Both the position numbers and the translations under genes were made by a program. Below the pieces are notes generated by a model. The model ran no database searches. It worked only from the letters and a program-made list of their open reading frames with translations, and was not told the DNA's origin. Of a stretch of DNA of 64,000 nt, positions 14,159-29,801 are shown piece after piece. Every line of letters starts with the position of its first letter. The stretch's first letter is position 1. Location of the stretch: IMG/VR virus record IMGVR_UViG_3300022700_000208, positions 17,646 through 81,645 of that record; one strand, 5' to 3'. The DNA is from a virus.

Positions 14159-14419
14159 ATGTCTAAGAATACGTGCAGAAAATGTAAGCATTTTAGAAAA
14201 CACCGATTATCCTCTATGGATGGGTTCTGTCTGAACAGTGTGGGCAATAAACCAGTGAATTATTCTTTTTACTGTCCAATGTTCACTCATACTTTAGGTG
14301 CTACCGAAGGGAAGAAACATGGGAAGAGCCAAAAACCTAGTGCAGGAAATAAGTGGCAAGACCTCGATTTCCCAGATAATCCTGGACTTCCGAAAGGCTA
14401 TCAAAGGGAAATTCAATAA
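14159..14419 (+). CDS. Small Cys-rich protein
   Basis: An 86-residue protein with CRKCKHFRKH near the N-terminus and two more Cys (GFCLNS, FYCPMF) in the first 43 residues, the spacing of a small zinc-binding or iron-sulfur-like module found in many phage and bacterial hypothetical proteins. The second half is hydrophilic and overlaps the next gene by 101 nt in another frame. Function unknown. Confidence 0.58.
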   Translation: MSKNTCRKCKHFRKHRLSSMDGFCLNSVGNKPVNYSFYCPMFTHTLGATEGKKHGKSQKPSAGNKWQDLDFPDNPGLPKGYQREIQ

Positions 14420-14528
14420 GAGAACATCCAAGACAAATTTCACTGCTAAGGGTGCTGTTTTTGAATTTGATTATGAGGATGGTGTTCGCTACCGAGTAAC
14501 TGTGGAGTCCCTGGAGAAAAAGAAATGA
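14319..14528 (+). CDS. Small tagged protein
   Basis: A 69-residue protein starting MGRAKNLVQEISGK, a clear variant of the M-[S/N]-[K/R]-A-K-x-L tag, which decides the start (ATG 14319, with AGGGAAG upstream) over an in-frame alternative at 14298. The body is small and beta-rich (VFEFDYEDGVRYRVTVESL). It overlaps the preceding gene by 101 nt and the next by 4 nt. Confidence 0.62.
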   Translation: MGRAKNLVQEISGKTSISQIILDFRKAIKGKFNKRTSKTNFTAKGAVFEFDYEDGVRYRVTVESLEKKK

Positions 14529-14767
14529 GTGATAAGTCAGATAATGTAAGACATCTCCCCTCTCTAGGAGATAATCCTAAAGGACTCATCCATAATGTCC
14601 AGCAGGAAGTGGATGATCTTGATGATGTGTTGGTGATTGGAAGGAAAAAGGATGGTGGGGTTAGTGTCTGGTCTACCCGTTCAGAGGCTTATTATTTTGG
14701 GGCCTGTCAGGCCATAATCCAAGACCTGACCTTGGCATCCTTTAATGGGGATATCGTCGATGAGTAA
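14525..14767 (+). CDS. Unknown small protein
   Basis: An 80-residue protein starting in an ATGA overlap. Residues 30-75 (LDDVLVIGRKKDGGVSVWST, then a helix) look like a small alpha/beta domain seen in some phage proteins of unknown function. It has no tag. It overlaps the following tagged gene by 8 nt. Confidence 0.62.
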   Translation: MSDKSDNVRHLPSLGDNPKGLIHNVQQEVDDLDDVLVIGRKKDGGVSVWSTRSEAYYFGACQAIIQDLTLASFNGDIVDE

Positions 14768-15014
14768 GGCTGACAGGCTTCTACAGCTTTGTGAGGTCCT
14801 AAGCCAGGAGGAGGTTGAGGACCAGGCTCAGGTTCTCATTTCCCTGCTCCGCAAAAGTGAGGACAAACTGGAGACAGCGGCTGAGTGGCTTAACTCCAAG
14901 GATTTCCAGGACAAGGACCGAAAGAAGATTGGCCAGGAGTATAAGAGTCTGGCCAAAAATCTTAGAGATCTGCCCAGTTGGGAAGACATTTTGAAAGAGG
15001 TAGCTAAGAAATGA
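14760..15014 (+). CDS. Small tagged helical protein
   Basis: An 84-residue protein beginning MSKADRLLQLCEVL. The tag sets the start at ATG 14760 rather than the in-frame ATG at 14745. The body is helical, acidic and basic alternating, with no recognised domain. It overlaps both neighbours. First of four consecutive tagged genes leading up to the terminase large subunit (14760-16316). Confidence 0.68.
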   Translation: MSKADRLLQLCEVLSQEEVEDQAQVLISLLRKSEDKLETAAEWLNSKDFQDKDRKKIGQEYKSLAKNLRDLPSWEDILKEVAKK

Positions 15015-15478
15015 AAAAGGCAGAAAAACTTTTAGGTCTGGTCAATGAATTGGCTGACAAGACTCTCCAGGATATAGCTAGCAAGGCTGGGGTATCTGTT
15101 GATCAAGTAAAGGACAAGGCTGATGAAATTGAAAAGGGCCTAAAGAAGAATATTGATCCAGATTCTGAGCCAAGGAAATTCTTTGCCATTCTCACATCTA
15201 CTCTCAAGAAAGCCTTTAATGTGGGGGAATCTTTCTCTGAGGCTTATGGTTCTTATGAAGAGTTCAAAATGATTGAGGTCTCAGAGGGTGTTTTTCTCTC
15301 AGAAAAGGATCTAAGGAAAAAAGTCACTAAGGCAGTCAGGAATCTTAAGCTCAAAGCAGATCTTGGTGTTGTCAGACTCACAGAGATTATAACCAAAGAG
15401 CTTGGAATTAAAAAGCCAGCAGCCGAGAGAGCGGTGAAGATTATAATAGGGCAGCTTATACAACAAGGAGTATTGTAA
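15011..15478 (+). CDS. Tagged helical protein
   Basis: A 155-residue protein beginning MKKAEKLLGLVNELADK, a tag variant, then a helical body with TLQDIASKAGVSVDQVKDKA, which reads like a helix-turn-helix, and a second helical domain. ATGA overlap with the preceding gene. Function unknown. Confidence 0.68.
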   Translation: MKKAEKLLGLVNELADKTLQDIASKAGVSVDQVKDKADEIEKGLKKNIDPDSEPRKFFAILTSTLKKAFNVGESFSEAYGSYEEFKMIEVSEGVFLSEKDLRKKVTKAVRNLKLKADLGVVRLTEIITKELGIKKPAAERAVKIIIGQLIQQGVL

Positions 15479-15802
15479 ATGAATAAGGCGCAGAAACTTA
15501 AGAGTTTGGTTAAAGAAAGATTCAAACATATAAAAGGGAAGTTTCCTGGAATGAGAAAGGAAGTTGAGTGGACCATTACTCCTGTCTCTAATACGGAAGA
15601 TCATATAGTTACAATTCAGTCTGATAAAAGAATTGCTCGAATTGATTTAAAGAGTGGCAAGGCTATGCTTTCTAAAAGCGGAAGAACTACTTTTGTAGAT
15701 TTGAACCCTGCCAGGGGAGCTAAGGAAGTCGATGTTCCCAAAGATATGATCAAAGAACTAGAAAAGATAGGTCCTCAAAAAGGCCCTACGAGACTTGTCT
15801 AA
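15479..15802 (+). CDS. Tagged basic protein
   Basis: A 107-residue protein beginning MNKAQKLKSLVKERF, then a beta-rich basic domain (IVTIQSDKRIARIDLKSGKA). It starts immediately after the previous stop. Net charge is clearly positive, as for DNA-binding or internal head proteins. Function unknown. Confidence 0.68.
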   Translation: MNKAQKLKSLVKERFKHIKGKFPGMRKEVEWTITPVSNTEDHIVTIQSDKRIARIDLKSGKAMLSKSGRTTFVDLNPARGAKEVDVPKDMIKELEKIGPQKGPTRLV

Positions 15803-15814
15803 GGAGGTAATAAA

Positions 15815-16087
15815 ATGAATAAGGCCAGTGTTCTAAAGGAAAAAGTCAATAAATTATCTGAGGCAAAGAAATTTGAGTTCTACGTGAACAAGGATGAGCG
15901 TGGAGAGTTTGAAGCAGATGTTCGCGATCAAAAAGGAAAAACAGTATGGGAAGGTGATACTGAGATGTTCAATGAGCTTATTGAAGATGGATTCATGAAA
16001 AATAAGGAGGATCTTGATGGTCTTGCTGAATATCTTATAGATAATAAGATCCTTCCCAAAGGTGCAGAATTAGTAAAAGCAAATTAA
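15815..16087 (+). CDS. Tagged small protein with candidate cleavage site
   Basis: A 90-residue protein beginning MNKASVLKEKVNKLSEAKK. After the tag lies LSE/A (Glu16), which fits the hydrophobic-x-Glu pattern of T4-type prohead proteases. The body is a small alpha/beta domain (EFYVNKDERGEFEADVRD). AAGGAGG precedes the ATG. Confidence 0.7.
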   Translation: MNKASVLKEKVNKLSEAKKFEFYVNKDERGEFEADVRDQKGKTVWEGDTEMFNELIEDGFMKNKEDLDGLAEYLIDNKILPKGAELVKAN

Positions 16088-16097
16088 GGAGAACATT

Positions 16098-16316
16098 ATG
16101 AGCAAGGCAAAACAATTGACAGAAAAGTTGGATGTGGATGAGAAGGTCAAAGAAGGTGATACTTTTAAAAAAGGGAATATGGAACTGTCTGTCCAGGAAG
16201 TATCAGCCAGTGGAGTGACCTTTGTGATCACGCAAGGCAAGACAACATCAAAGCCTCTTCAAATGGACAGTATTAAAGATTTTCAGGCTTTCCTTAAAGC
16301 CAATGATTTTAAGTAA
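16098..16316 (+). CDS. Tagged small protein
   Basis: A 72-residue protein beginning MSKAKQLTEKLDVDEKVKEGD; the candidate cleavage site VKE/G follows Glu19. The body is a compact beta-rich domain (MELSVQEVSASGVTFVITQG). AAGGAG precedes the ATG. It is the last gene before the terminase large subunit. Confidence 0.7.
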   Translation: MSKAKQLTEKLDVDEKVKEGDTFKKGNMELSVQEVSASGVTFVITQGKTTSKPLQMDSIKDFQAFLKANDFK

Positions 16317-16329
16317 TCATTATTAACTT

Positions 16330-18897
16330 TTGGCATCTAAGAGTAACTGGCAATGGCAAAAAATGGAAAAACGAGATTCGTTCGATATAATAAGGAAGTC
16401 TCTAGCCAAGAGAAGGCTATTAGATTTTACCCAGCACACAAAGCCAAATTACAAAGCAAATTGGCACCATAAACTGATATGTGACAAGCTTGATAAGTTT
16501 ATAGAAGGTAAGATCAAAAGACTGATGATCCTAATGCCTCCTAGGCACGGTAAACAAGTTTCTTTTGATACTCCTGTTTTTACTCCTTCGGGTTGGACAA
16601 TCCATGGAGATCTTCAAGTTGGTGATGAGGTGTTTGGCCCTGATGGGAATCCTACTAAAGTGATAGCTTTAAGTGAGGAGTCTTATCAAGATATTGAGGT
16701 AGAATTATCTAATGGTCAGATTATTGAGTGCCATGAAAATCATGAGTGGTCCTTTTATGATAGGTCTCGTAGGGTTTGGAGAACTAAAGAGACAAATTGG
16801 TTTTTAAATAGGAAAGTTGTAAGTTCAGGAAGATGTATATTTCAACTTCCTAATATCAATCCTCTTTATTTTGCTGAAAAAAATCTTGAGGTTGATCCTT
16901 ATTTTCTTGGAGTGTGGTTAGGAGATGGAACATCAATTAAGCCTACTCTGAATTTGTGCTCTGATGATGAGGGTTATATATTATCTGGAATCCCCTATAA
17001 TTTTAGCTCTAGGGCTGTCCATAAAGATACAAAGGTCCCAAGTATAAATTATTATGGGGAAGTCAAAGATAATATTGAAAAATTAGGTCTTTTCGGGAAT
17101 AAGCATATTCCAAAAGATTATTTATACTCATCTTTAGAACAGAGAGTTCAACTTTTGGCAGGTCTTATTGATTCAGATGGGCATGTTGAAAAAGAAGGAA
17201 GAGTTAGGTTTGTTAATACAAATAAGGATTTGATTGATGGAGTTTATGAGCTTCTCAGAACACTCGGACAAAGACCTTATCTTACTTCTCAGGAAGCTCA
17301 TAGCAGTACAACTCTTCCTATAAATTCTGACAAAAAATGTTATGCAGTAGGTTTTCAGCCTACAATTGATATACCTACTAGGGTTCCAAGAAAAAAGATA
17401 AAGAGGATTGTAACTCAGAGAAGAGTTGGGATTAAAGATGTAAGGAGAGTTGATAAAAAGACTAAAGGAAATTGCATTCAAGTTGATAGGGAGGATGGTC
17501 TTTATTTAGTTGGGGAGAGTCTTATCCCCACACACAATTCAGAATTAGTTAGTAGGAGACTTCCTGCTTACATATTTGGGAAAAATCCAGATGCTCAGGT
17601 GATCTCAGCCACGTATGGAGCTGAGCTATCACAGAGATTGAATAGGGATGTTCAGAGGATTATTGATTCTGATCCTTATAGAGATTTGTTCCCAGAAACA
17701 CAGCTTTCTTCCAAGAATGTAAAGACAACCTCAAAGATGAGTTATTTAAGAAACTCAGATATCTTTGAGATAGTAGGAAGAAAGGGAGTTTATCAGTGCG
17801 CTGGAGTTGGAGGCGCATTGACTGGTATGGGAGCCAATTATGTGTTGATTGATGATCCCTTTAAGAACCAGGAAGAGGCAGACTCCCCGACGATAAGAGA
17901 AAAAGTTTGGGATTTTTATTCCTCTGTTCTTTATACCAGGCTTGAAACCCAGCTCAGTGATGGAAGCGTAGTCAATAGTGATGGGGGAATTCTTCTTACT
18001 ACAACCAGATGGCATGAGGATGATTTAGCTGGAAGGCTAATCACTCAAATGCATGAAGATCCTGAGAATGCTGATCAATGGGAGATCATCAATCTCCCAG
18101 CAATTATTGAAACTCAGGAGGAGGAAGAAAATTCTATTGATCCCAGGGTAATGGGAGAGGCTCTTTGGCCTGATAAATTTGATGAGAAAAAGCTTCACGT
18201 TATTAAGTCCACTCTTGGTTCCAGAAAGTGGGCTGCTCTTTATGAGGGAAGACCTGCTCCTGATAAGGGAGACATTGTAGAAAGAGAGTGGTGGCAATAC
18301 TATACAGATCTTCCTGAAGAGCTTGATTTCAAGCTTATTTCTGTGGACTGTGCTTTTAAGGGAACCAAGAAATCAGACTTTGTAGCTATACAGGTCTGGG
18401 GCAAAAAAGGAGTTCACAAATATCTGATCCATCAGGTTCGAGCCAAGATGGGTTTCAATGCAACTGTGGAGGCTATCAGGCAAGTTAAATACAAATATCC
18501 TGATGCTATGGAAGTTCTTATTGAGGAAAAAGCCAACGGGGCGGCTGTTATAGAAAGTCTTAAGAGTGAGATTGAGGGAGTAACTGCCTTCAATCCTAAA
18601 GATTCTAAAGAGTCCAGGGCCAAGGCTAATGCTGTGGCTCCCCAGATTGAGGCTGGAAATGTTCATATTCCCGATCCCTCAGTTGCTTCTTGGGTTGGTG
18701 ATTATGTTGAAGAGTGGGCTGTGTTCCCGAACAGTCAGAATGATGATCAGGTGGATGCCACATCTCAAGCTCTTATCAAGATGCATCAGACAGCCTATGA
18801 ATGGGTTGATGTGGTTGATCATCTTGAGCAGGGAAAAGGCATTGAAGGTCTTCCTCCAGAAGTGGCTGAGCAACTTTGGCCTAATCATGCTGGATAA
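16330..18897 (+). CDS. terL: Terminase large subunit, interrupted by an intein
   Basis: An 855-residue precursor; removing the 328-residue intein leaves a 527-residue packaging motor. The ATPase has a Walker A split by the intein (MPPRHGK then SELVSRR), Walker B YVLIDDPF and the coupling motif TTTRWHEDDLAGRL. The nuclease domain shows LISVDCAF, VLIEEKANG and the final Asp in NDDQVDATS. This fits the TIGR01630-type large subunit, which translocates DNA into the prohead and cuts it. The start is uncertain: TTG at 16330 or ATG at 16363, neither with a good ribosome binding site. Splicing must occur for ATPase activity because the P-loop is broken. Confidence 0.93.
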   Translation: MASKSNWQWQKMEKRDSFDIIRKSLAKRRLLDFTQHTKPNYKANWHHKLICDKLDKFIEGKIKRLMILMPPRHGKQVSFDTPVFTPSGWTIHGDLQVGDEVFGPDGNPTKVIALSEESYQDIEVELSNGQIIECHENHEWSFYDRSRRVWRTKETNWFLNRKVVSSGRCIFQLPNINPLYFAEKNLEVDPYFLGVWLGDGTSIKPTLNLCSDDEGYILSGIPYNFSSRAVHKDTKVPSINYYGEVKDNIEKLGLFGNKHIPKDYLYSSLEQRVQLLAGLIDSDGHVEKEGRVRFVNTNKDLIDGVYELLRTLGQRPYLTSQEAHSSTTLPINSDKKCYAVGFQPTIDIPTRVPRKKIKRIVTQRRVGIKDVRRVDKKTKGNCIQVDREDGLYLVGESLIPTHNSELVSRRLPAYIFGKNPDAQVISATYGAELSQRLNRDVQRIIDSDPYRDLFPETQLSSKNVKTTSKMSYLRNSDIFEIVGRKGVYQCAGVGGALTGMGANYVLIDDPFKNQEEADSPTIREKVWDFYSSVLYTRLETQLSDGSVVNSDGGILLTTTRWHEDDLAGRLITQMHEDPENADQWEIINLPAIIETQEEEENSIDPRVMGEALWPDKFDEKKLHVIKSTLGSRKWAALYEGRPAPDKGDIVEREWWQYYTDLPEELDFKLISVDCAFKGTKKSDFVAIQVWGKKGVHKYLIHQVRAKMGFNATVEAIRQVKYKYPDAMEVLIEEKANGAAVIESLKSEIEGVTAFNPKDSKESRAKANAVAPQIEAGNVHIPDPSVASWVGDYVEEWAVFPNSQNDDQVDATSQALIKMHQTAYEWVDVVDHLEQGKGIEGLPPEVAEQLWPNHAG
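16555..17538 (+). other. Intein with LAGLIDADG endonuclease in terminase
   Basis: A 328-residue intein within the terminase P-loop. The first block reads QVSFDTPVFTPSGW, so residue 1 is Gln rather than Cys or Ser. The block B region ends HENHEW. The end is LYLVGESLIPTHN followed by Ser, giving the canonical His-Asn and a +1 Ser that restores GKS. Between lie the two LAGLIDADG helices, YFLGVWLGDG and LLAGLIDSDGHV, so a DOD homing endonuclease is present and looks intact. It is related to the intein at 26299-27306. Confidence 0.92.
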
Positions 18898-18899
18898 TC

Positions 18900-19121
18900 A
18901 TGAGCAATACTAGGTTTGAGCCGACAAATAAACTCAGAGTAGCTAAGTGGACAGAGCGGGTGAAAAGCAATGTTGATCCCATGAAACATCCAGTTGGCAA
19001 ACCTATTCCTACAAAAATTGTGGAAAGACAGGCCATTCAGCAACTCTGGTATTGTGTGAAAACAGGCAAAGAAGAGTGGAGATTCCTGGAAGAAGTTAAT
19101 CTAGAGGCATCAGAGGTTTGA
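18900..19121 (+). CDS. Unknown small protein
   Basis: A 73-residue basic protein that starts two bases after the terminase stop (ATCATG). It has a Trp-containing helical C-terminus (QQLWYCVKTGKEEWRF). No recognised domain. It is tightly followed by the next gene. Confidence 0.62.
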   Translation: MSNTRFEPTNKLRVAKWTERVKSNVDPMKHPVGKPIPTKIVERQAIQQLWYCVKTGKEEWRFLEEVNLEASEV

Positions 19122-19307: not shown

Positions 19308-20052
19308 AGATTCCTATGGAATTATAGGCCAGATCAAAGGCCCCAATAATCCAATAGAGGTAGAAGGTGGAGATTCCGTCAATTGGGAAGGTCACTGGAT
19401 CTATCTCAATAATGGCCGAGATCCAGGAGGTAAAATAGTCAAGACTACTTCCAGGTATGTGAGTTTTTTTGAGGTGGGCTTTGGGGCTTATGCAAGGCAT
19501 CCCAAGAAAAGCCAAACCAAGCATGGTTTTGGGGCCTATTATAAAAATCCATGGCAGGGATGTATCTCCAGGGACCAGCTAAGAGGAATTCTGGCTGCCC
19601 TTATCTCAGGTGGGGAGTATTTGGCTATGCTGAGGCTTATTCTTCACCATGCCCTGAGAGGCTTCATATTTGCCTACAACACGATTGAAAATGGGGATGA
19701 TCCCGACACAGCCCCCTGGAAGCTACCAGATCTCACAGGGCCTGACATTTGGGCTATGGAGCTACGGGGGTTTGGCCTGGCCAGTTGGCTCTTCTGGCCG
19801 ATACTGTGTCTGCTCGATATCTACATGCTTTTTAATGCAGTGTTCCATAATCATAAGGAAACCCAGCATGTGATCAGTTTTTCTATCACCCTGCTTGTTT
19901 GTGTTGAGAATGTTCCCACCCCCACGAGCTTATTGGCTAAATATGTGATCGACAGGGATGAGCTATTATCAGAGCTTTATAAGTATTGGTGCAATTGGAG
20001 AGAAAGCTGTGAAATCTATCATGCTTATGAAAAGAGGTTGAATGCCCTATGA
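19300..20052 (+). CDS. Unknown membrane-associated protein
   Basis: A 250-residue protein. The first half is Gly- and aromatic-rich and contains ISRDQLRGILAAL, a motif I associate with an uncharacterised family that also has DPxGKIV and membrane helices. At residues 165-200 there is a hydrophobic stretch (SWLFWPILCLLDIYMLF) and a further one near 190-205. The C-terminus is polar with several Cys and Tyr. Codon use looks slightly more GC-rich than its neighbours, possibly a sign of separate origin. Function unknown. Confidence 0.66.
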   Translation: MNRDSYGIIGQIKGPNNPIEVEGGDSVNWEGHWIYLNNGRDPGGKIVKTTSRYVSFFEVGFGAYARHPKKSQTKHGFGAYYKNPWQGCISRDQLRGILAALISGGEYLAMLRLILHHALRGFIFAYNTIENGDDPDTAPWKLPDLTGPDIWAMELRGFGLASWLFWPILCLLDIYMLFNAVFHNHKETQHVISFSITLLVCVENVPTPTSLLAKYVIDRDELLSELYKYWCNWRESCEIYHAYEKRLNAL

Positions 20053-20342
20053 GCAAAGCTAATGATCTTAAGAACAAGGTAAAAGACATCAAGATGAAAG
20101 AAAAATCCACTGGGACCACTGGGGTTGGTGGATCGGAAGTCTCCCATACCCATGGGTATGTGATTGATGAAAATGGTAATGGGAAGACCACATCTACCTC
20201 AGAGGGAGAGGATCATATTCATCAGATCACTGAGTATGAGGTTCAGCCTGCACCTCCAGGCAATCATGTTCATCCTTTGGAGAAAAAGGATGATAATGGG
20301 GATGCAGGAAAGCCTATAAATCAGAGAGGTAAAAAGAAATGA
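20049..20342 (+). CDS. Tagged His-rich protein
   Basis: A 97-residue protein beginning MSKANDLKNKVKDI. After the tag lies a His-rich region with SHTHGYVIDENGNG, GEDHIHQI and GNHVHPL: three H-x-H pairs separated by about 30 and 25 residues. Such repeated HxH pairs bind metal in trimeric phage fiber tips (for example T4 gp12); here they sit on a tagged small protein. The end is basic. It starts in an ATGA overlap. Confidence 0.7.
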   Translation: MSKANDLKNKVKDIKMKEKSTGTTGVGGSEVSHTHGYVIDENGNGKTTSTSEGEDHIHQITEYEVQPAPPGNHVHPLEKKDDNGDAGKPINQRGKKK

Positions 20343-20548: not shown

Positions 20549-20957
20549 GACAGAAGAGGAAGACACATTCTATGATGTGGATGGCAAACTGGCCAAGAAA
20601 TTGGATGGTCCCCCTAAGAATATGAAAAAATCCAAGGAGAAAAAGTTTGCCATGATCATTGGGGGAGATACAGCCGTTGTATTCACCTCCCCTTCGGATA
20701 AGGAAGCCAAGCAGGACACCAAGAATAGAGTTGAAAAGGATGATCTCAAGAATGCTGTCCTGGCTAGAAAGGTGGGAGATCTTCCTGATAGTGGTGAGGA
20801 GATTTTCCAAGCATTTATTTCTTTTGCAGATAAAGACAAAGAGGAAACCAAATCAGCTAAGCTAAAGAACCTAGTTCAAAACACAAGGAATCCTCTTCAG
20901 AATACTCCTTATCCATTTGATAAGAAGAAAAAGAGGAAGCGTTATGAAGAAAGCTAA
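20529..20957 (+). CDS. Unknown protein with internal tag-like segment
   Basis: A 142-residue protein starting MLSENIKTEEEDTF inside the end of the membrane protein gene. Residues 40-90 form a compact domain (KKFAMIIGGDTAVVFTS). Near residue 110 the sequence ETKSAKLKNLVQN closely resembles the N-terminal tag but is internal. The end is very basic (KKKKRKRYEES). Function unknown. Confidence 0.62.
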   Translation: MLSENIKTEEEDTFYDVDGKLAKKLDGPPKNMKKSKEKKFAMIIGGDTAVVFTSPSDKEAKQDTKNRVEKDDLKNAVLARKVGDLPDSGEEIFQAFISFADKDKEETKSAKLKNLVQNTRNPLQNTPYPFDKKKKRKRYEES

Positions 20958-21234
20958 AAAGCTCAAACAATCAGTTGAGAAAGCCTATGGGCCTGATTTT
21001 GATAATCTTAAGAAAAATCGTGTTGATCTCACCAATGCTGAGAGGGAAAAGATTATGAGATCTCATGCTTATTGGCATCACGGTAGAAAAGGAAGGGCAA
21101 CTCCAGCTATATTCAAAGCAATGATTGGTGGGTGTCCCTATTATGTTCCCCATACTCACAGGGCTTACAGATGCCTTAGAACCTTAGATGGGGCTATCAA
21201 CCAATTCCACAAATACATTAAACAGACAGCATAG
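20944..21234 (+). CDS. Tagged basic protein
   Basis: A 96-residue protein beginning MKKAKKLKQSVEKAYG; the tag sets the start at ATG 20944 (an in-frame TTG at 20917 is upstream). The body contains His-, Tyr- and Arg-rich stretches (RSHAYWHHGRKGRA, YYVPHTHRAYRCL). Strongly basic. It overlaps the preceding gene by 14 nt. Function unknown. Confidence 0.67.
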   Translation: MKKAKKLKQSVEKAYGPDFDNLKKNRVDLTNAEREKIMRSHAYWHHGRKGRATPAIFKAMIGGCPYYVPHTHRAYRCLRTLDGAINQFHKYIKQTA

Positions 21235-21542: not shown

Positions 21543-22226
21543 ATGAGCCGAGCTGAGAAGCTTTTAAATGAAATGAAAATGGTTGAAAAGAAGTTAAAGG
21601 ACAAGGATTTTCGCAATCCTCGTGATGCAGTTGAGATGGATGATTTCCAGAAGTTTGCCAAAGACAAGCTCAAGGATAAGCCTGAGGATCTTATCAGGAA
21701 AGGATTCTTTGAGAAAACCAAAGATGGTGAAATCATTCCTTCTAAGAAACTTGCTAAGGAAATGGCTAGTACAGGCAATTCTTTTGATGAGAAGGAAATT
21801 GATGGTTTGACTGATCAGTTAGAGTCAATGATCAGGGATGTTGCTAATAGTGTTATTAAGAAAGTTGCCAAGAAAAGAAATGTCAAACCTAAGGGGATAG
21901 AGGCTGAGGTCAAATTAAATGTTGATCCCAATTCCTTCCAGTCTCCTGCCAAAGTTGAGATTTATTATAAAGGGGAGGAAGAAGAGGTAGAAATTGGATT
22001 TGGTGCTCCTCCTTCTATGGATTTTGATGCAAAGGTTGATGAGTTTGAGGATATGGAATGGACTCTTCTTCTTGATTTTGAATCCCCATGGCATGAATCT
22101 GACGTGAGAGACAATTGGGAGCAGGTTGAGTTACTGAGAACATTGAATGAGCTTGGGGTTGATGATGATTCTGAAGAAAAGCTCAAGAAAGCTGTTAATG
22201 AGCTGATTGATTCTGCTGAGGAGTAA
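21543..22226 (+). CDS. Tagged protein, 227 residues
   Basis: A 227-residue protein beginning MSRAEKLLNEMKMVEKKLK; it shares MxMVEKxLxxE-type residues with the tag of the following gene (MSKAKRILSEMDMVEQRLE), so the two are close relatives in this region. The body is acidic with an alpha/beta section around residues 120-165 (VDPNSFQSPAKVEIYYKGEE). AAAGGAG precedes the ATG. Largest simple tagged protein in the block. Function unknown. Confidence 0.68.
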   Translation: MSRAEKLLNEMKMVEKKLKDKDFRNPRDAVEMDDFQKFAKDKLKDKPEDLIRKGFFEKTKDGEIIPSKKLAKEMASTGNSFDEKEIDGLTDQLESMIRDVANSVIKKVAKKRNVKPKGIEAEVKLNVDPNSFQSPAKVEIYYKGEEEEVEIGFGAPPSMDFDAKVDEFEDMEWTLLLDFESPWHESDVRDNWEQVELLRTLNELGVDDDSEEKLKKAVNELIDSAEE

Positions 22227-22228
22227 TC

Positions 22229-22531
22229 ATGAGCAAAGCAAAAAGAATTCTTTCAGAAATGGACATGGTGGAGCAGAGGCTGGAGAAGGAACTTCAGCCT
22301 CTCTTTGATGAGCTTGAGAATCAAAGCTTTGTTAAAGACATTGATAAGACTGATGGGACAGAGCTTGATGTGACTGTTGTCGATAAGCGGGGTAAAGCTG
22401 ATGTTCTTACTCTGGCCTGGGATGATAAGAACAATGAATATGTCTGGTCAGATTTCAGCAAGGATACTCCTATCGGTAAGAAACCTGAAGATGCCATCAA
22501 GTGGCTCAAGAAAAAATTGAAGGTTAGGTAA
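22229..22531 (+). CDS. Tagged protein, 100 residues
   Basis: A 100-residue protein beginning MSKAKRILSEMDMVEQRLEKE. The body is a small alpha/beta domain (LDVTVVDKRGKADVLTLAW). It starts two bases after the previous stop. Function unknown. Confidence 0.68.
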   Translation: MSKAKRILSEMDMVEQRLEKELQPLFDELENQSFVKDIDKTDGTELDVTVVDKRGKADVLTLAWDDKNNEYVWSDFSKDTPIGKKPEDAIKWLKKKLKVR

Positions 22532-22786
22532 ATGTCTAAGGCAAAGAAGCTATTGGACAAAGTGGAAAACAATAATGAGGCTGTGGTCAAGGATGCTCTC
22601 AAAGTTATTAAGAAAGCCACTCCTGAGGAGCTTCTCCAGATCATGAGCCAATTAGAAAGAAGATTTGAGGATGATAAGGAACTTAATGGCCTTTCCAAGG
22701 TTATGAGTCAGATAATCAAAAAAGTTTCTAAGGCCAAGTTTGGATCAGTCAAGAAAGTATCGAATAAGTCCCTCATGGTTAAGTAA
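22532..22786 (+). CDS. Tagged helical protein, 84 residues
   Basis: An 84-residue protein beginning MSKAKKLLDKVENNNEAVVKD; NNE/A at Glu16 resembles the candidate cleavage pattern but lacks the hydrophobic residue. The rest is helical with a basic end. Directly follows the preceding stop; AGGTTAGG lies upstream. Function unknown. Confidence 0.67.
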   Translation: MSKAKKLLDKVENNNEAVVKDALKVIKKATPEELLQIMSQLERRFEDDKELNGLSKVMSQIIKKVSKAKFGSVKKVSNKSLMVK

Positions 22787-22796: not shown

Positions 22797-23117
22797 ATGA
22801 GCAAAGCGAAAAGATTAATTGAGAAACTGGATATTGGTGAAAAGAAGCTTAAGGATTTTGTCAGTGATCTTGAGAAAAACATCAGAGATGTTAAAGAGTT
22901 TATCCCTCCTACAGAAGGTAAAAGAAAAGATGCCATCAGGTCCTTATCCAAATTGGCTGTAGATTCTGTTTTTGTTTTAGCTGAGGAATCGAATAAGTTG
23001 AGAAGTGATGATTTGGGAGATGATTCAGATAGATTTTTGGATAATCTGGAGGATTCTTTAAAGAGTATGGAATCCCAAATGAAACGAGTCAGAAGTAACT
23101 TGAAAAAGTTAAAGTAA
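22797..23117 (+). CDS. Tagged helical protein, 106 residues
   Basis: A 106-residue protein beginning MSKAKRLIEKLDIGEKKLK. The tag and TAAGGAGAGTGAA upstream set the start at ATG 22797. The same leader, TAAGGAGAGTGAAATG, precedes the 23128 gene and a near copy precedes the AAA+ gene at 25939, pointing to local duplication. The body is a helical bundle candidate with coiled-coil character. Function unknown. Confidence 0.7.
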   Translation: MSKAKRLIEKLDIGEKKLKDFVSDLEKNIRDVKEFIPPTEGKRKDAIRSLSKLAVDSVFVLAEESNKLRSDDLGDDSDRFLDNLEDSLKSMESQMKRVRSNLKKLK

Positions 23118-23127: not shown

Positions 23128-23487
23128 ATGAATAAAGCTAGACAAGTTTTGGAAAAAGCAAAGAAGTTTTCTGAGGCTGTGGATAAGCAAGCGGTCAAAG
23201 AACTCATTCTGTATGCAGATAATGATGGGGATCTTCATAAAAGACAGTTTGTTCCCATTCTTAAAAATCTCAAGAAGAAATGGGATAAAGGCCAATTTGA
23301 TGAGAAGAAAGCAGTCAAAGCCTTTTTGAATTTTGCGGATGAGGCAGCCAAGAAATATGTCAAGGAACATGGTGCTCCTGGGGACAAGGTAAAAGATATC
23401 TTCCCCAAGAAGGTAAGAGAGGCTGCTGCTGAGGAATGGGCAGAGCGTTTTAAAGAACAAGTTGAAAACGACGATCTTCCTCTTTGA
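23128..23487 (+). CDS. Tagged helical protein, 119 residues
   Basis: A 119-residue protein beginning MNKARQVLEKAKKFSEAVDK; FSE/A at Glu16 is a candidate prohead-protease site at the same distance as in the 15815 gene. The body is basic and helical. Leader TAAGGAGAGTGAA shared with the preceding gene. Function unknown. Confidence 0.7.
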   Translation: MNKARQVLEKAKKFSEAVDKQAVKELILYADNDGDLHKRQFVPILKNLKKKWDKGQFDEKKAVKAFLNFADEAAKKYVKEHGAPGDKVKDIFPKKVREAAAEEWAERFKEQVENDDLPL

Positions 23488-23495
23488 GGTCAGGC

Positions 23496-23759
23496 ATGAA
23501 TTTTAAAAAGATAACTCCAGATTTCATTCTTATTGGGGTAGCCATTCTGGCTCTTGTGATCACTGTATATGATCTCATGGCTCTTAATAATGGAGGGACA
23601 GAGGCTACCATTAGCCATGTGATTATGGTGTGGTCTTACAAATATCCTTTATTCACTTGGTTTGCTGGATTCATTCCAGGTGTATTGGTGGGGCATTTGT
23701 TTTGGAGAATTAGGGATAGTAAGAAAACAGACAAGTTAGGAAGGGAGATTCCGAAATGA
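23496..23759 (+). CDS. Small membrane protein
   Basis: An 87-residue protein, start ATG 23496 with GAGG upstream (an in-frame TTG lies at 23484). Two hydrophobic segments: residues 8-30 (DFILIGVAILALVITVYDL) and about 50-70 (YPLFTWFAGFIPGVLVGHLF). The end is basic. It sits between two tagged genes and overlaps the next one at ATGA. Function unknown. Confidence 0.62.
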   Translation: MNFKKITPDFILIGVAILALVITVYDLMALNNGGTEATISHVIMVWSYKYPLFTWFAGFIPGVLVGHLFWRIRDSKKTDKLGREIPK

Positions 23760-24103
23760 GTAAGGCAAAGAAATTCCTTGAGAAAGTCAGTACAAACAAA
23801 TCTGTCAATGAGGGTTCAATCCTTGAGTTCCCAGACATGGCTAAGGAAAATAAAGAGTTTAAGAAGCTCTTTAAAAAAGAAGAGGAAATTCAGAAAAAGA
23901 GAGAAGAGATATCTGACTCTCTTTTAAAAATGGAAGATCTTCTCAATGATGCCCAGAAGCAAGCAAATAAAATGAAAGAATCTGATTTTCCAGAAGGGCC
24001 TAAATCCGCTGAAGGTAAAGAGGGTTATATAGACAGAATTAAGTTTAAACTGAGAGACCTGGACAAAGCTATGGATTATCTCAGAGAGCAAGGATTGATG
24101 TAA
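23756..24103 (+). CDS. Tagged coiled-coil protein, related to the 37039 gene
   Basis: A 115-residue protein beginning MSKAKKFLEKVSTNKSVNEGS, with VNE/G at Glu19 as candidate cleavage site. Residues 35-80 are a coiled-coil. The C-terminal section FPEGPKSAEGKEGYIDRIK with YLRE matches FPAGPKSVEKMQTAKEKLD in the 37039 protein, so these two tagged proteins share their body as well as the tag. It directly precedes the portal gene. Confidence 0.7.
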   Translation: MSKAKKFLEKVSTNKSVNEGSILEFPDMAKENKEFKKLFKKEEEIQKKREEISDSLLKMEDLLNDAQKQANKMKESDFPEGPKSAEGKEGYIDRIKFKLRDLDKAMDYLREQGLM

Positions 24104-24134
24104 GCAAACTCCAAAATAAGTTAAAGGATAAACA

Positions 24135-25928
24135 ATGGCAAACACCGAAGAGCAAACTCAAAATCAATCATCAGGAGAGCAGGGAAATAGGATAGCTCTC
24201 AATGAAGAGCAGTTAAGGGTTCTTGAGCGTGTATTCCCTGGATTCTCTAATGATGATGCTAATGCTGACAGTATCCTGGAGAATCTTATTGTCGGCTTTA
24301 ATGATCCCAACACTCTTTCTAATATGAGTGCTTCCAGTAGGAATTTTGATTCCTATCAGGTAGCGGCTGCCTATGCTGCTATCTACACCAAGTCTACTCG
24401 CTCTCGTTATGAGCTTATAAGGAAGGTGGAAGAGGCTAGAGATTTCTATTTGGTTGAGACCATTACTCAGCAATTCACTGAGGATGCTCTGAACCCAGAG
24501 ACAGGAACTGGCAATATTCTCAATGTCAGTTCTAAAAATAAAAAGATTCAGCAGGAAATTGATCTGTTGGATGAGCGCTTTGATTTTGATCAGATGGCCC
24601 AGACCATCACTCCTGATATGATCCTTTACGGAGAGTACACTCTCAAGACTGAGGTCAACACTTATGATAAGGACAAGGGATCAGTAAAAAATAATCAGGA
24701 TGGTCAGGAAAGAAAGCTCAGTGAAAAAAGCATTCATGAGCAGCAGATAGATAAGCTTAATAAGCAAAAGTCTGTTGATGAAAAAGAAGAGTCTAATGCT
24801 GGCCTGGTTAATATTCTTGATAATGTTGAGCAGGGATCAGTTATTGCTCTTGAAAAGGATGGCGGTATTGATGGTTATCTTGTGATCAATCATAAGGGAA
24901 GGCTTCAAAAAGCTGAGCCTGCTGATTTCATCAAGTTTGCTCTTCCCAGGACCAGAATACGTATTGATCTTCAGAATGAGGTCAGTGGTGTTGTTAGACA
25001 TTTTGGGGGAAATCCTCAAAGAGAGTCTGTCAAAAAAGAACTTGCTAATGTCCCAAGATTTATTCGGGTTGGACGTTCTATTATTGCTCCCTTTCTATCT
25101 AAGATTAAAGAGCTTCAACTTCTAGAATCTCTTATCCCAGCAACCAAGATATCCAAGTTATCCAATGGAAATATAGTTGGTGTACAGCTTCCTGAGAATA
25201 CTAAAGTTGAACAGGGGATGAATGTTGCCAATCGCCTTGAGCAGGTGATCAATAAAAAAGTCGGTGTTGATAAGGAAAAGGGTGAGCTTAATATTGAAAA
25301 TATTATGGCAACTTCAGGCAGGACTAAATGTATTCCCATGTTTGGGGAGAAGGGCCGCCTTGAGAAACTCGATTTCAAATCTGAGGAGCCTGATGATCTG
25401 TTGAATGCTGTCAAGGAAATGAGAGAGACCATTCTTGACAGTGCAGGTATTCCTCATGAATTGGTTTTTAAATCTGAGGGGGATACTAAGAGTGAGATCC
25501 TTAAGCGTTATGCCAGATATCTAAGAAGGCTCAAGCAAATCCAAAAAGGTATTTGTGATGGTATCAAGCAAATGATCTATATCCACCTGGCCAATAAGGG
25601 AATTGAATTTGATCCAGAAGAAATCAGTGTTGAGTTTGAGAATAAGATTGTCGAGATCGACAACCTGGACACTCTTGAGTTCATGGATACCACGGTGGGA
25701 ATGCTTGATAATCTCAAGAATTTCCTTGGGGAACTCAATGAGGAAGGATCTCCCTTAGAGGGCCGAGTGAATTCTGAATCCTTGGCTGATTTCCTTGAAG
25801 AGCAGCTTAGAATTGTGGGGCTCAATAAAGTTATTCTTCCCAGACAAAAACAAAAGGAAAATCCTCCTGATTATGAACCAGAATCCAAAAAAGAAAATGA
25901 TCCATTAGGTCCAGAACCTGAAATATAA
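24135..25928 (+). CDS. Portal protein (T4 gp20-like)
   Basis: A 597-residue portal. Recognised by a helical N-terminal part with EEARDFYLVETITQQFTEDA, a central section with ADFIKFALPR and RSIIAPFLSKIKELQLLE, and a C-terminal part with RETILDSAGIPHELVFKSEG and YLRRLKQIQKGICDGIKQM. The family forms the dodecameric ring at the unique vertex through which DNA enters, and nucleates prohead assembly. Length is slightly above T4 gp20 (524). It is preceded and followed by tagged genes. Its own N-terminus (MANTEEQTQNQSSGEQG) is not tagged. Confidence 0.88.
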   Translation: MANTEEQTQNQSSGEQGNRIALNEEQLRVLERVFPGFSNDDANADSILENLIVGFNDPNTLSNMSASSRNFDSYQVAAAYAAIYTKSTRSRYELIRKVEEARDFYLVETITQQFTEDALNPETGTGNILNVSSKNKKIQQEIDLLDERFDFDQMAQTITPDMILYGEYTLKTEVNTYDKDKGSVKNNQDGQERKLSEKSIHEQQIDKLNKQKSVDEKEESNAGLVNILDNVEQGSVIALEKDGGIDGYLVINHKGRLQKAEPADFIKFALPRTRIRIDLQNEVSGVVRHFGGNPQRESVKKELANVPRFIRVGRSIIAPFLSKIKELQLLESLIPATKISKLSNGNIVGVQLPENTKVEQGMNVANRLEQVINKKVGVDKEKGELNIENIMATSGRTKCIPMFGEKGRLEKLDFKSEEPDDLLNAVKEMRETILDSAGIPHELVFKSEGDTKSEILKRYARYLRRLKQIQKGICDGIKQMIYIHLANKGIEFDPEEISVEFENKIVEIDNLDTLEFMDTTVGMLDNLKNFLGELNEEGSPLEGRVNSESLADFLEEQLRIVGLNKVILPRQKQKENPPDYEPESKKENDPLGPEPEI

Positions 25929-25938
25929 GGAGAGTAAA

Positions 25939-28785
25939 ATGAGTCGAGCAAAGTCACTCCTGAATACATTCAATGAAGCCAGAATTGGTGACGATAAAAC
26001 TCAGCATAATGATCGGTTTGCTGTCCTTGGGGGAGGTAATGCCTATCTTCCAACAGGAAAAAGGCAGACAGCCGAGAAGTTAACTGCTGGGGCTTACGTT
26101 CCTAAAATGAGCCCTCAAGGTGTTGTGTTTGAAAAGGCTCAGATCAACACTGATGAGATCCTTCGCTTTGAGGATGAAAGACAAAAGAAGGTTGTCAAAA
26201 GAGTAGAGAAGTTTTGGGAGCAGGGCCAACGCTATAATCAGTTTGGCTTTACTCATTCCTTCGGTCTTCTCATGGAAGGTCCCCCAGGCAGTGGAAAATG
26301 TCTGGGTAGAGGGACTCCTGTTCTCATGTACGATGGATCTACCAAGAAAGTAGAGGATGTAGTTGTAGGGGATAAATTGATGGGAGATGATTCTACTCCT
26401 AGAACTGTTAAATCAACTACTAGTGGATATGAGCAGATGTACAGGGTTGTTCCTGTAAAAGGTGATCCTTATGTAGTTAATGAATCTCATATCCTTAGCC
26501 TTAAGATGTCCTGCGCAGCAGGAGGAAAAGAAAAAGGTGAGAAGGTAGATATCTCTGTAAGAGAGTATATGGAAAGAAGTAATCATTTTAAGCATTATGC
26601 TAAAGGATATCGAGTAGGAGTCGACTTTGAAGAAAAAGAGGTTCCTCTAGATCCTTATTATCTTGGGATATGGCTAGGAGATGGAAACAATAAGGATCAG
26701 AGTATTTCCAACCCAGAGGAAGAAATTCTTGAGTATCTTTATTCTTTGGGTGAAGAAAGAGGGCTTCATGTATATGCTGATACTCAAGAAGGAAAATGTC
26801 CTTTAATAAAGCTAGTGAAAAAAGAAGGATTATATAATAACCTTCTTGATTCTTTGAGAGAACTTGAGCTTATTAACAATAAGCATATCCCCCATATTTA
26901 TAAAGCCAATTCAAAAGAGAATAGACTTCAGCTTTTGGCTGGTTTATTGGACACAGATGGTTATTATTGTAATGGTTATTATGAAATAATGAGCAATAAC
27001 TCAGTCTTGAAGGATGATATTCTTTATCTTGCAAAATCTCTTGGTTTTGCTGCCTACTATAAAGAAAAAGAGGCTAAGTTAGAAAATTGGGATGAGCCAA
27101 GGACCTATTATAGGATATCTATTTCAGGGCATGTTGATGAGATTCCATGTAAAGTGGAAAGGAAGCAAGCAGAGCCAAGAAAACAAAAGAAAGATGTTCT
27201 TTCTACGGGAATCACTTTAGAGAAGTTGGAAGTTGATGAGTATTTTGGTTTTGAGATTGATGGTAATAGGAGATTTCTCCTGGGGGATTTTACTGTTACT
27301 CACAATACCGTGATAGTAAAACAAGTTCTTGAGGATGCTATCAATCAAGATCATATTGCTCTCATTTGCAGGAATGTGGATGATTTGGCTGAAGGTCTTA
27401 ATGCTCTAAGAGAGGTTGAGCCTGATCGCAAGATCCTTTGTGTGATGGAAGATATTGAAAACCTCATCAAGTTTGGGGATCAATCTCTCATTCAGCTCAT
27501 GGATGGGGACAATAAGCAAGAGGGTGTGTTCTACCTGGGAACTACAAACCATCCTGAGAAGATCCATCCCCGTGTTAAAAGAAAAGGCAGGTTCTCAGAG
27601 ACCATTCATGTTCCGTTTCCTCCCAAAGAGGGAAGACAAGCCTATCTCAAGAAAAAGCTTGGCCAGCATGAGGATGCCAAGGAAATCAATCGCATTGTGA
27701 AAGCCACAGAGGGCCTTAGTTTTGCCCACCTCAGGGACTACATCATTGGGACCTATTGTGAGGAGAGAAACTCGGATGAGGTTCTCAGCGAAATTAAGGA
27801 CGTGTCAGTGGAGGAGCTTAAATCCCAGGGCCTTACCTATGATGAGTTTAAAGAAAAGCTTGAGGAGGCTCTTGGAGTCCAGAGCACCGCTTCATATAAC
27901 CAGTCCTTGAATGAGGATACAGTCCGTACTCCTAGCGATAAAGCCAAGAGCAAATCTCAGCGCCGCCGAATGGAGAGAATGAAGAGCAAATATAAGAAGC
28001 AAAAGAGCGAGTCCAGGGCTTCTAAGCTCTTAGAGGAGATGGATGATTCTGGGTTCAGTCTGATTGATCCTGAAGAGATCAAAAAGGAATTCAGGCAGAA
28101 GATCAAGAACTTTGGCATTGAGGGAGTCAATGTTGAGGATGTCACTGTAGACATGGAAAATGATATCATTGTCAATTTCTCTGATGATGAGGGAGATGAA
28201 CTCCTGGCCATTTTCCAACACAATGAAGAGGAAGCCTGGGTTCTTATTGTCGATGATGAGGAGGAAGCTGAAAATGAAGAGGGAGAAGCCATTATTGTGG
28301 ATCTTAGTCCTCTTCCATTTGCCCTTAGGGATACCCCAATCGGTAAATATTTAGAGCTTGCCACTCTTGAATGGATGAATAAGTCCACTCTTGTTTCCAT
28401 CCTAAGAGCTGGGGAGATCGGATATGATAAGCAGATCAAAGACTATAGCAATAGCTATGATGCTTATGGGAACCGAGTTGTAGCTCCAGCCGAAGCCAAA
28501 GTCAGTGAGGAAGATCTTAAGAAACATCTTCAGGAAAGTGGTGTTGATGAGCTTAAGAGAACAGTTGTCAGAGGAGGAAAGAGAGTCAAACTCCCTGTGG
28601 TGATAAAGAAGAAAAAGAAAAAGCTCACTGGTAAACAAAAGGCAGGCATCAGAAAAGGTGCAAGGAAAAGAAAAGCCAAGAAGGCTCAGATCCAGAGGAA
28701 GAGAAAGAAATCCCTGAAGAAAAGAAAGCAAATGGGCCTTAAAAAGGGAGGTCTTGGGACTCGAAGAAAGCTCAAAGGAAGATAA
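25939..28785 (+). CDS. Tagged AAA+ ATPase interrupted by an intein
   Basis: A 948-residue precursor; 612 residues remain after removal of the 336-residue intein. It begins MSRAKSLLNTFNEARIG, the tag, with FNE/A at Glu13 as a candidate cleavage site. The AAA+ core has GPPGSGK split from T by the intein, Walker B CVMEDIENL, and sensor-1 GTTNHPEKIHPRVKRKGRFSE. The C-terminal part contains a second tag-like SRASKLLEEMDDSGFSL, an acidic domain, then a very basic tail (RKGARKRKAKKAQIQRKRKK). The leader TAAGGAGAGTAAAATG is shared with tagged genes. A tag, AAA+ and basic tail together are unusual; role unknown, probably in the head. Confidence 0.88.
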   Translation: MSRAKSLLNTFNEARIGDDKTQHNDRFAVLGGGNAYLPTGKRQTAEKLTAGAYVPKMSPQGVVFEKAQINTDEILRFEDERQKKVVKRVEKFWEQGQRYNQFGFTHSFGLLMEGPPGSGKCLGRGTPVLMYDGSTKKVEDVVVGDKLMGDDSTPRTVKSTTSGYEQMYRVVPVKGDPYVVNESHILSLKMSCAAGGKEKGEKVDISVREYMERSNHFKHYAKGYRVGVDFEEKEVPLDPYYLGIWLGDGNNKDQSISNPEEEILEYLYSLGEERGLHVYADTQEGKCPLIKLVKKEGLYNNLLDSLRELELINNKHIPHIYKANSKENRLQLLAGLLDTDGYYCNGYYEIMSNNSVLKDDILYLAKSLGFAAYYKEKEAKLENWDEPRTYYRISISGHVDEIPCKVERKQAEPRKQKKDVLSTGITLEKLEVDEYFGFEIDGNRRFLLGDFTVTHNTVIVKQVLEDAINQDHIALICRNVDDLAEGLNALREVEPDRKILCVMEDIENLIKFGDQSLIQLMDGDNKQEGVFYLGTTNHPEKIHPRVKRKGRFSETIHVPFPPKEGRQAYLKKKLGQHEDAKEINRIVKATEGLSFAHLRDYIIGTYCEERNSDEVLSEIKDVSVEELKSQGLTYDEFKEKLEEALGVQSTASYNQSLNEDTVRTPSDKAKSKSQRRRMERMKSKYKKQKSESRASKLLEEMDDSGFSLIDPEEIKKEFRQKIKNFGIEGVNVEDVTVDMENDIIVNFSDDEGDELLAIFQHNEEEAWVLIVDDEEEAENEEGEAIIVDLSPLPFALRDTPIGKYLELATLEWMNKSTLVSILRAGEIGYDKQIKDYSNSYDAYGNRVVAPAEAKVSEEDLKKHLQESGVDELKRTVVRGGKRVKLPVVIKKKKKKLTGKQKAGIRKGARKRKAKKAQIQRKRKKSLKKRKQMGLKKGGLGTRRKLKGR
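26299..27306 (+). other. Intein with LAGLIDADG endonuclease in the AAA+ ATPase
   Basis: A 336-residue intein starting CLGRGTPVLMYDGS (Cys1) and ending FLLGDFTVTHN followed by Thr. It separates GPPGSGK from T, so the insertion is inside Walker A. The block B region is NESHILSL. LAGLIDADG motifs are YYLGIWLGDGNN and LLAGLLDTDGYY. It shares DPYxLGxWLGDG and NKHIPxxY with QLLAGLxDxDG with the terminase intein, so the two are related. Splicing and homing-endonuclease residues look intact. Confidence 0.93.
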
Positions 28786-28786
28786 T

Positions 28787-29221
28787 ATGAATTATGGCAA
28801 GTGGTATGCCCAGGAAATGGACCGATTGGGTGATGAAATTGAGGATCAAGAAAACCATCGTAAGGATAGAGAGGAGACAGACATGAGTAAAGCCAAGGAA
28901 CTGACAGAGAAATTCAATAAGGTAGATGAGAAGGACTTAAAGTCTGAGGATCTCAAGGAATTTGCTGATGCTATCAGTGAAACTATAGGCAAAGTTCAGA
29001 ATTTTGTCGATGGGTATCAAAGAGTCAGAAAGAGACTCAATAAGGATATGCAGAAGGCAAAAGACAATGTTGATAATCTTGGCTCTGGAGAGTCTGATGA
29101 GAGTGTTCAGGAAGAGCTTCATGTTCTTGCCGATATGATGCAAGATTTCCTTGAAAGTATGGAGGAGCTTGCGAATGATAACAAAAAAGAAATGGAAAAC
29201 GCTGTAAAGAAACTTAAATAG
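28787..29221 (+). CDS. Tagged protein, two possible starts
   Basis: A 144-residue reading frame from ATG 28787 (MNYGKWYAQEMDRLG), which follows the AAA+ stop at once. A second in-frame ATG at 28883 starts MSKAKELTEKFNKV, the tag, and has GAGGAG 6 nt upstream; it would give a 112-residue tagged protein. Both starts may be used, or the first 32 codons may be a separate leader. The body is helical with coiled-coil character. I list the longer frame because the gap would otherwise be unusually long for this phage. Confidence 0.62.
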   Translation: MNYGKWYAQEMDRLGDEIEDQENHRKDREETDMSKAKELTEKFNKVDEKDLKSEDLKEFADAISETIGKVQNFVDGYQRVRKRLNKDMQKAKDNVDNLGSGESDESVQEELHVLADMMQDFLESMEELANDNKKEMENAVKKLK

Positions 29222-29236
29222 ATAGGAGTTTGTACT

Positions 29237-29569
29237 ATGTCAAAAGCAAAAGAATTGAAAGAGAAATTCGATAAAACCAAACAAGGTCAGTCTGTATCTG
29301 AGCAAGGGACCAGCCCTAATAATGTTGCTAAGACAAGAGATCAAGTTGCAAAGAGATTAGGTGCAGCTCAGAAAATTATGTCTAAGCCTGATCCTGAAAA
29401 TTTAAAACAGATTGTACAGGGACATCTAGATGCTTTGGATGCTGTTAGGTCAGGTCTTGTTTCCATGTTTAAAAAAGAAGGAAATAAAGACATGCAAAAG
29501 GTAATAGATAAAGTTTCTGACTCAGAAAAAGAACTAAGAGACTTGGTTAAAAAAGAGGATTTTTTCTAA
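29237..29569 (+). CDS. Tagged helical protein, 110 residues
   Basis: A 110-residue protein beginning MSKAKELKEKFDKTKQGQ, with VSE/Q at Glu22. Helical and basic throughout, with a helical pattern (HLDALDAVRSGLVSMFKKEG) resembling the end of the preceding protein. TAGGAG lies upstream. Function unknown. Confidence 0.69.
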   Translation: MSKAKELKEKFDKTKQGQSVSEQGTSPNNVAKTRDQVAKRLGAAQKIMSKPDPENLKQIVQGHLDALDAVRSGLVSMFKKEGNKDMQKVIDKVSDSEKELRDLVKKEDFF

Positions 29570-29570
29570 T

Positions 29571-29801
29571 ATGTCCAAGGCAAAAAACTTGCTTACTTTG
29601 GTCTCAGAGGCCAGTAAGCCAAAAATTGAAAAGCTCAAGTCCATTTGGGAGGGCTTAAGCTCTAGACAGAAAAAAGAGTTAATGGCCCTTTATGCTTTCT
29701 CCGAGTTCAATGAAGAGTTTGATCACCTATCTTCTTATCAGAAGGAAGTGATGATCAATAACCTAGAAGTAGCAGAATCATTTTCATCGAAGGAACACTA
29801 A
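29571..29801 (+). CDS. Tagged small protein, 76 residues
   Basis: A 76-residue protein beginning MSKAKNLLTLVSEASKPK; VSE/A follows at Glu13, the same distance as in the AAA+ ATPase. The body is helical. It starts after the previous stop and overlaps the next gene at one base. Function unknown. Confidence 0.69.
   Translation: MSKAKNLLTLVSEASKPKIEKLKSIWEGLSSRQKKELMALYAFSEFNEEFDHLSSYQKEVMINNLEVAESFSSKEH

Follow-up and report, generated by a model that had tools for sequence, protein, structure and literature searches.

In phage T4, the N-terminal 10-19 residues of internal proteins, known as the capsid-targeting sequence (CTS), bring these proteins to the prohead core (PMC9026906). The CTS is carried by IPI, IPII, IPIII and Alt and is cut off by gp21 (Mullaney and Black 1996; see the reviews PMC9026906 and PMC3012670), which acts after L/I-x-E; mutational work has assigned residues 4 and 7 to targeting (IPIII) and residues 8 and 10 to processing (PMC9026906). 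DarB of phage P1 likewise has an N-terminal packaging signal, its first 30 residues being sufficient to send a reporter into the head, although the Dar proteins showed no consensus (PMC9024508). In phiKZ-like phages such as SPN3US, propeptides are removed by the prohead protease, and gp53 and gp54 share 15 identical N-terminal residues, but the propeptides are mostly longer than 100 residues and the shared start is found on these two paralogues only (PMC5694885). Here we have analyzed a stretch of 64,000 nucleotides, referred to as the window, which spans bases 17646-81645 of the 81,645-base viral contig IMGVR_UViG_3300022700_000208 and in which 20 genes begin with a common N-terminal tag. We consider it likely that the first ~12 residues of their products are a T4-type CTS through which many unrelated proteins are packaged into the prohead. 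A search of the open-licence literature turned up no account of such tag families outside T4-like, P1 and phiKZ-like phages.

The 20 genes share the N-terminus M-[SNK]-[KR]-A-x-x-L-[LK]-x-x-phi (phi, hydrophobic). An earlier reading made from the sequence only had proposed 19 clear and five weaker starts; all of the clear ones are true open reading frame starts carrying the motif, with good ribosome-binding sites at most of them, and the weaker start at 49095 is the twentieth member. Using a leave-one-out profile of residues 2-13, for which 49095 was not used in building, the tagged genes score from +3.0 to +26 and the other 70 genes at most -5.4. Pairs of N-termini with a BLOSUM score of at least 25 number 49 in the window, as against maxima over 300 repeats of 3 for within-protein shuffles, 4 for column shuffles and 2 for internal segments, and together with the profile separation this means that the shared tag is real. 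A free-offset, unsupervised pair test found 42 pairs, where the null never exceeded 4; it also recovered the known IPI, IPII and IPIII of T4, and gave zero pairs for phages lambda and P2. Information content peaks at position 4, where the Ala claimed to be nearly invariant is indeed the most conserved residue (3.5 bits), followed by positions 3, 7 and 2; position 4 is hydrophobic in a fraction of 0.95 of the window tags and position 7 in 1.00. The hydrophobic moment of residues 2-13 lies 5.6 standard deviations above shuffles, compared with 1.5 for untagged genes, in agreement with the amphipathic helix suggested earlier. The tag would be a short basic amphipathic helix, and in one predicted structure, of moderate confidence, it forms a separate N-terminal helix. 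Identical tag residues use the same codon in only 33% of cases, the conserved Ala being encoded by GCA (8), GCT (5), GCC (4) or GCG (2). Since synonymous codons are scrambled, selection acts on the protein sequence of the tag, and with so little codon sharing the tags are not recent DNA copies. Conservation is limited to about the first 12 residues, many entire tagged proteins being shorter than 110 aa, and the window tags lack the ~100+ residues of a phiKZ-type propeptide. Behind the tag the bodies differ, as had been noted: compared with one another by BLASTP and phmmer they are unrelated, save for one marginal pair (E=0.03), most cargo proteins have no convincing family in PHROGs and Pfam, and several gave no defence-type matches with PADLOC.

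By its genes, the window phage is an uncultured myovirus with a T4-type head and a contractile tail. Its late region encodes the small terminase, large terminase (16330), portal, S77 protease/scaffold, Gp23 capsid protein and tail sheath (39020), and the 20 tagged genes are interspersed among these morphogenesis genes; the tag itself is absent from the core tail, baseplate, capsid, portal and terminase proteins of the window. The presumed tag-removing enzyme is a gp21-type prohead protease (Peptidase_S77) fused to a coiled-coil scaffold (31896..33380, plus strand; Pfam PF03420, 38.8 bits with a cut-off of 27; PHROG head maturation protease, 3e-32), and it is followed by an untagged gp23-type major capsid protein (33470..34903, plus strand; Pfam Gp23, 1.6e-12), both exceeding the Pfam cut-offs. 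The capsid protein has an N-terminal phi-x-E site of its own, the glutamate of which (E7) is nearly invariant among relatives. Within residues 5-24, phi-x-E occurs in 18 of the 20 tagged window proteins, as against 10.6 in shuffles, and in 11 of 11 in G004, a related contig described below. For the window phage we infer packaging, cleavage, a receptor and injection: the tag helix, hydrophobic at positions 4, 7, 8 and 11, would dock unrelated cargo on the prohead scaffold core, the S77 protease would cut just after the helix at the phi-x-E site, and the freed cargo would remain inside the head, available for injection. The receptor would differ by phage lineage, and all tags of one phage would then shift together.

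The likeness to the T4 CTS comprises the short N-terminal sequence common to proteins that otherwise differ, hydrophobic residues at positions 4 and 7, a genome encoding both an S77 protease and gp23, and cargo that is not conserved among relatives; (L/I)-x-E-like sites near the tag may be a further parallel. There are also differences. Position 4 is Tyr or Phe in T4 but Ala in the window, which has in addition a conserved Lys or Arg at position 3; T4 has about four cargo proteins, whereas the window has at least 20, clustered among head genes; and among this presumed cargo, unlike that of T4, are an AAA+ ATPase and a fusion protein that bears a tag internally. The sequence-only reading had proposed a prohead-loading tag equivalent but unrelated to that of T4. 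The equivalence is well supported, if indirectly, by the S77 protease and gp23, the T4 CTS register, the protease-like sites, a tagged core protein at the gp67/gp68 position and the structural annotations of Yersinia phage YerA41. 'Unrelated' is not supported, because the two systems agree in their type of head, protease and tag register. The better reading would be that the window tags are a diverged and much expanded T4 CTS with a lineage-specific sequence, although homology of a 12-residue helix to the T4 CTS cannot be proven. New with respect to T4 are the far larger number of cargo proteins, the lineage-specific tag families, their concerted change and the internal tag in an AAA+ fusion.

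A close-clade capsid alignment scan yielded 27 viral contigs and two genome-assembly contigs. Many related S77/gp23 contigs hold families of ~4-11 tags, each with a lineage-specific consensus: MS[KR]AxxIL in L207 and L210, MSKAxxII in L214, MNKAxxIL in L215, MxLIxELxxLLE in the near-duplicates L199 and L209, MxLVxxLxxxLE in L202 and MTKQxxFLxxF in L217, a contig from a Deferribacterales genome assembly; the counted family pairs include a few ordinary paralogues. Among more distant cultured relatives, the consensus is MSRISxLNKKFE[AS] in YerA41 and TAxxILxICE[AS] in Vibrio phage 1.031.O, with Escherichia phage EP_H11 as a less convincing example of a cultured relative that has a tag family. G004, an independent 95.7-kb contig whose capsid protein is 47% identical to that of the window, has the morphogenesis genes of the window but only one of the window's tagged cargo proteins; its own cargo starts with ~MSKAxxLLxLVE, and its tagged genes are found in two places, the head module and a further cluster at 67-73 kb. 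Averaged over 12 lineages including the T4 CTS, the hydrophobic fraction is 0.90, 1.00, 0.75 and 0.96 at positions 4, 7, 8 and 11 and 0.04-0.16 at positions 5, 6, 9 and 12 (Met being position 1), figures that are somewhat flattered by hand-listing of the members in a Met-anchored register, the families having mostly been found without recourse to this spacing. The spread of the tag, which had been put forward as a check, favours a packaging tag, multi-copy families being found in S77/gp23 phages but in neither lambda nor P2. When viral contigs were scanned at the DNA level for exact matches to a ribosome-binding site followed by an MSKAK start, there were, among the matches listed, single-match stretches only, a result that carries little weight except as a sign that multi-copy families are rare. 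Two further observations concern individual tagged genes. Adjoining genes with near-identical first 12 or more residues are found in L018 (12501/12725) and L193 (405/750) (MSRATELLKKYPI...; MSKVDRINKSLNESFSKD...), possibly recent tag or gene duplications, and one tagged G004 protein (L063 9473-9742) consists mostly of DUF3175 (PF11373, 4.6e-10) and seems to be an example of a domain that gained a tag.

The relatives encode an orthologous core protein between portal and protease, at the gene position of T4 genes 67 and 68 (gp67/gp68); its body is beta-rich, and most of the orthologues have a basic tail. In most relatives this orthologue carries the tag type of its own lineage: its N-terminus is of the SKA type in G004 (MSKAQKLLEQFN), L207 (MSRADELVKKLT) and L214 (MSKANKIIEMIN), and of the LI type in L199 (MKLIKELNQLLE), L200 (MKLIQQLNQMLE) and L202 (MKLVEKLKRKLE). 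The similarity of the orthologue's tag to own-type versus other-type cargo is 17.1 versus 0.8 in SKA lineages and 20.1 versus 4.1 in LI lineages, and orthologue and cargo tags co-vary (permutation p=0.0007, with effectively two clusters). Since the tags, including that of the orthologous core protein, change in concert, one shared receptor per phage is implied; the simplest reading would be a single receptor in each phage that recognises every tag and drifts between lineages. Both the window and L018 have the orthologue fused behind a tagged AAA+ ATPase, with its own tag surviving internally. The window fusion (25939..28785, plus strand, 948 aa, starting MSRAKSLLNTFNE, profile +14.4; Pfam AAA, Hom_end_hint and Hom_end) comprises the ATPase with an intein and the core-protein domain, and this C-terminal domain is homologous to the tagged G004 protein. 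At its start, at residues 692-702 (28012..28044, plus strand), lies a second tag copy, SRASKLLEEMD, which scores 23.1, the best of 17747 internal positions, and aligns with the free N-terminus of the G004 orthologue and with the internal copy SRAAALIEDMD of L018. This internal copy had been missed in the sequence-only reading. When compared with T4 gp68 by BLASTP, the basic tail of the G004 orthologue matched at 3e-5 and the window domain gave no comparable match; a core-domain profile reached E=9 against gp68, and fold searches of the core domain gave no match. Homology of the core domain to gp68 is not supported by the profile.

YerA41 has six genes with that phage's tag, five of which are annotated as structural, a label that we take to reflect published liquid chromatography-tandem mass spectrometry (LC-MS/MS). 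In its head cluster, four tagged genes are so labelled and one is not. The sixth, encoding a RimK-like ATP-grasp enzyme ~110 kb from the head cluster, is labelled structural, and the YerA41 paper (PMC7354516) marks its counterpart, matched by gene order, as particle-associated. This enzyme (L068 29211-30632) also has a putative zinc-protease domain, and its domains, tag and structural annotation suggest an injected protein-modifying enzyme. A number of points nevertheless weigh against reading the window tags as a CTS. Experimental support comes only from YerA41 and not from the window phage, and the YerA41 head-cluster cases are weak because most neighbouring genes are structural too, so that the RimK-like case alone is independent among its tagged genes. 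A strict L/I-x-E, read off the list, is present in 11 of the 20 window tags and absent from 9. Six relatives (L196, L198, L208, L211, L212 and L216) have no tag family, the co-variation of tags derives mainly from two tag types, and the L210 orthologue (MKAIDVTNKIN) fits the tag type of L210 poorly. Individual start sites may be wrong because the genes of uncultured contigs were called by a simple script weighing ribosome-binding sites.

One alternative, which we regard as unlikely, is that the tag helix binds a membrane or an assembly site and gathers proteins where heads are assembled, be it the membrane or the portal initiation complex, without packaging them. An amphipathic, basic and N-terminal tag would suit such a role, as would the fact that T4 head assembly begins on the inner membrane (PMC9026906). 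Lineage-specific letters would not be needed for it, however, and yet the tags change in concert; moreover, phi-x-E sites are enriched behind the helix, and the RimK-like enzyme of YerA41 is tagged and annotated as structural despite lying far from the head genes. It could also be that the tag mimics the C-terminal tail of the scaffold, the cargo entering as a pseudo-scaffold on the capsid protein, which would be a specific mechanism within the CTS explanation. Scaffold/protease C-termini across the clade read ~S-R-G-x-R-L-M-E-x-[FL]-[SL]-[KR] (e.g., L207 6554-8173 and L203 394-1908), probably a capsid-binding tail, and the ending ~S-R-G-x-R-L-M-E-x-F resembles the SKA-type tags. Since the tags show no co-variation with the scaffold tails (p 0.21; 0.43 for representatives), mimicry is no more than a lead, and a quite unlikely one, the window's own tail being unremarkable (p 0.19). 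Very improbable is that the tagged proteins form one fast-diverging paralogous family of which the N-terminus alone is still recognisable: much of the cargo is encoded by small neighbouring genes that cannot be assigned to a family, and the L018 neighbours have near-identical tags, but the bodies are without similarity, distinct domains are involved (AAA+ ATPase, beta-rich core protein, the RimK ATP-grasp of YerA41 and the DUF3175 of G004), and the tag type of the orthologue switches with the genome. Hardly credible at all is the idea that the shared start serves translation or expression, or stems from faulty gene calling, since in spite of MSK-type starts being common in bacteria and phages, and of single matches to the tag-start DNA pattern in many viral contigs (among the matches listed), codons vary at constant amino acids, which rules out a translation-start artefact, untagged late genes of the region lack the shared start, and hydrophobic residues recur at the same intervals in lineages whose tag letters differ.

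All members in the window lie on the plus strand. Upstream of the large terminase are MGRAKNLVQEIS (14319..14528, 69 aa, profile +3.2, with a VQE site), MSKADRLLQLCE (14760..15014, 84 aa, +12.0, with an alternative upstream ATG at 14745), MKKAEKLLGLVNE (15011..15478, 155 aa, +15.9), MNKAQKLKSLVKE (15479..15802, 107 aa, +16.1), MNKASVLKEKVN (15815..16087, 90 aa, +15.8) and MSKAKQLTEKLD (16098..16316, 72 aa, +23.9). Further on, before the portal gene, are MSKANDLKNKVK (20049..20342, 97 aa, +11.1), MKKAKKLKQSVE (20944..21234, 96 aa, +18.2), MSRAEKLLNEMK (21543..22226, 227 aa, +20.9), MSKAKRILSEMD (22229..22531, 100 aa, +17.2), MSKAKKLLDKVE (22532..22786, 84 aa, +18.7), MSKAKRLIEKLD (22797..23117, 106 aa, +16.7), MNKARQVLEKAK (23128..23487, 119 aa, +8.0) and MSKAKKFLEKVS (23756..24103, 115 aa, +18.3). 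The AAA+ fusion is followed by MSKAKELTEKFN (28883..29221, 112 aa, +24.8), which has AGGAG before its ATG and an alternative upstream ATG at 28787, by MSKAKELKEKFD (29237..29569, 110 aa, +26.1) and MSKAKNLLTLVSE (29571..29801, 76 aa, +20.5), and, beyond the capsid gene, by MSRAKQLCEKLS (37039..37329, 96 aa, +18.4) and MNKSEQLLKLIE (49095..49331, 78 aa, +3.0, the next best gene scoring -5.4). Three of the other weaker starts, MKAPSLKNLVLEA (7563..7793), MNSKASNLLSKI (10262..10522) and MKAKDLKNLVDEV (10688..10900), are possible members in a register shifted by one or two residues, their N-termini pairing only with free offset, and 37744 is no more than a candidate. No further convincing tag members occur in the 17.6 kb that precede the window in the record.

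Among the neighbouring genes, the untagged portal protein (24135..25928, plus strand) has ~31% identity to annotated Rhizobium phage portal proteins, and viral contigs searched with it as a query gave no match. Inteins with homing-endonuclease domains are found in the large terminase (16330-18897) and in the tagged AAA+ ATPase (25939-28785), both apparently inserted in the Walker A motif, after GK. There is a group I intron at the capsid gene of L214 (8935-9189; Rfam RF00028, 82.6 bits), and the capsid gene is split in L207 and L210 too, with no Rfam match there. Capsid genes of this phage group also occur in two bacterial genome assemblies, L217 (Deferribacterales) and L216 (a contig of Pseudoalteromonas peptidolytica), which hints at hosts or at contaminating phage contigs.

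Packaged and injected phage proteins are usually known only through proteomics of a cultured phage. More broadly, we lean towards the view that S77-protease T4-type phages use private, lineage-specific packaging codes, each matched to one co-evolving prohead-core receptor, that tens of unrelated genes per phage have been recruited to the virion by gaining the right 12 residues, and that sequence therefore suffices to tell which proteins an uncultured phage packages and injects. If the tags do target proteins to the head, they would give a direct sequence read-out of the packaged proteome for uncultured phages, and dozens of small proteins annotated without function would become candidates for early counter-defence or takeover. 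The concerted, lineage-specific change of the tags offers a route to finding the CTS receptor, and phage heads used to deliver proteins would gain a set of distinct packaging signals. The finding would be of considerable interest because it would extend the T4 mechanism to a broad uncultured group of phages and make their packaged proteome readable from sequence.

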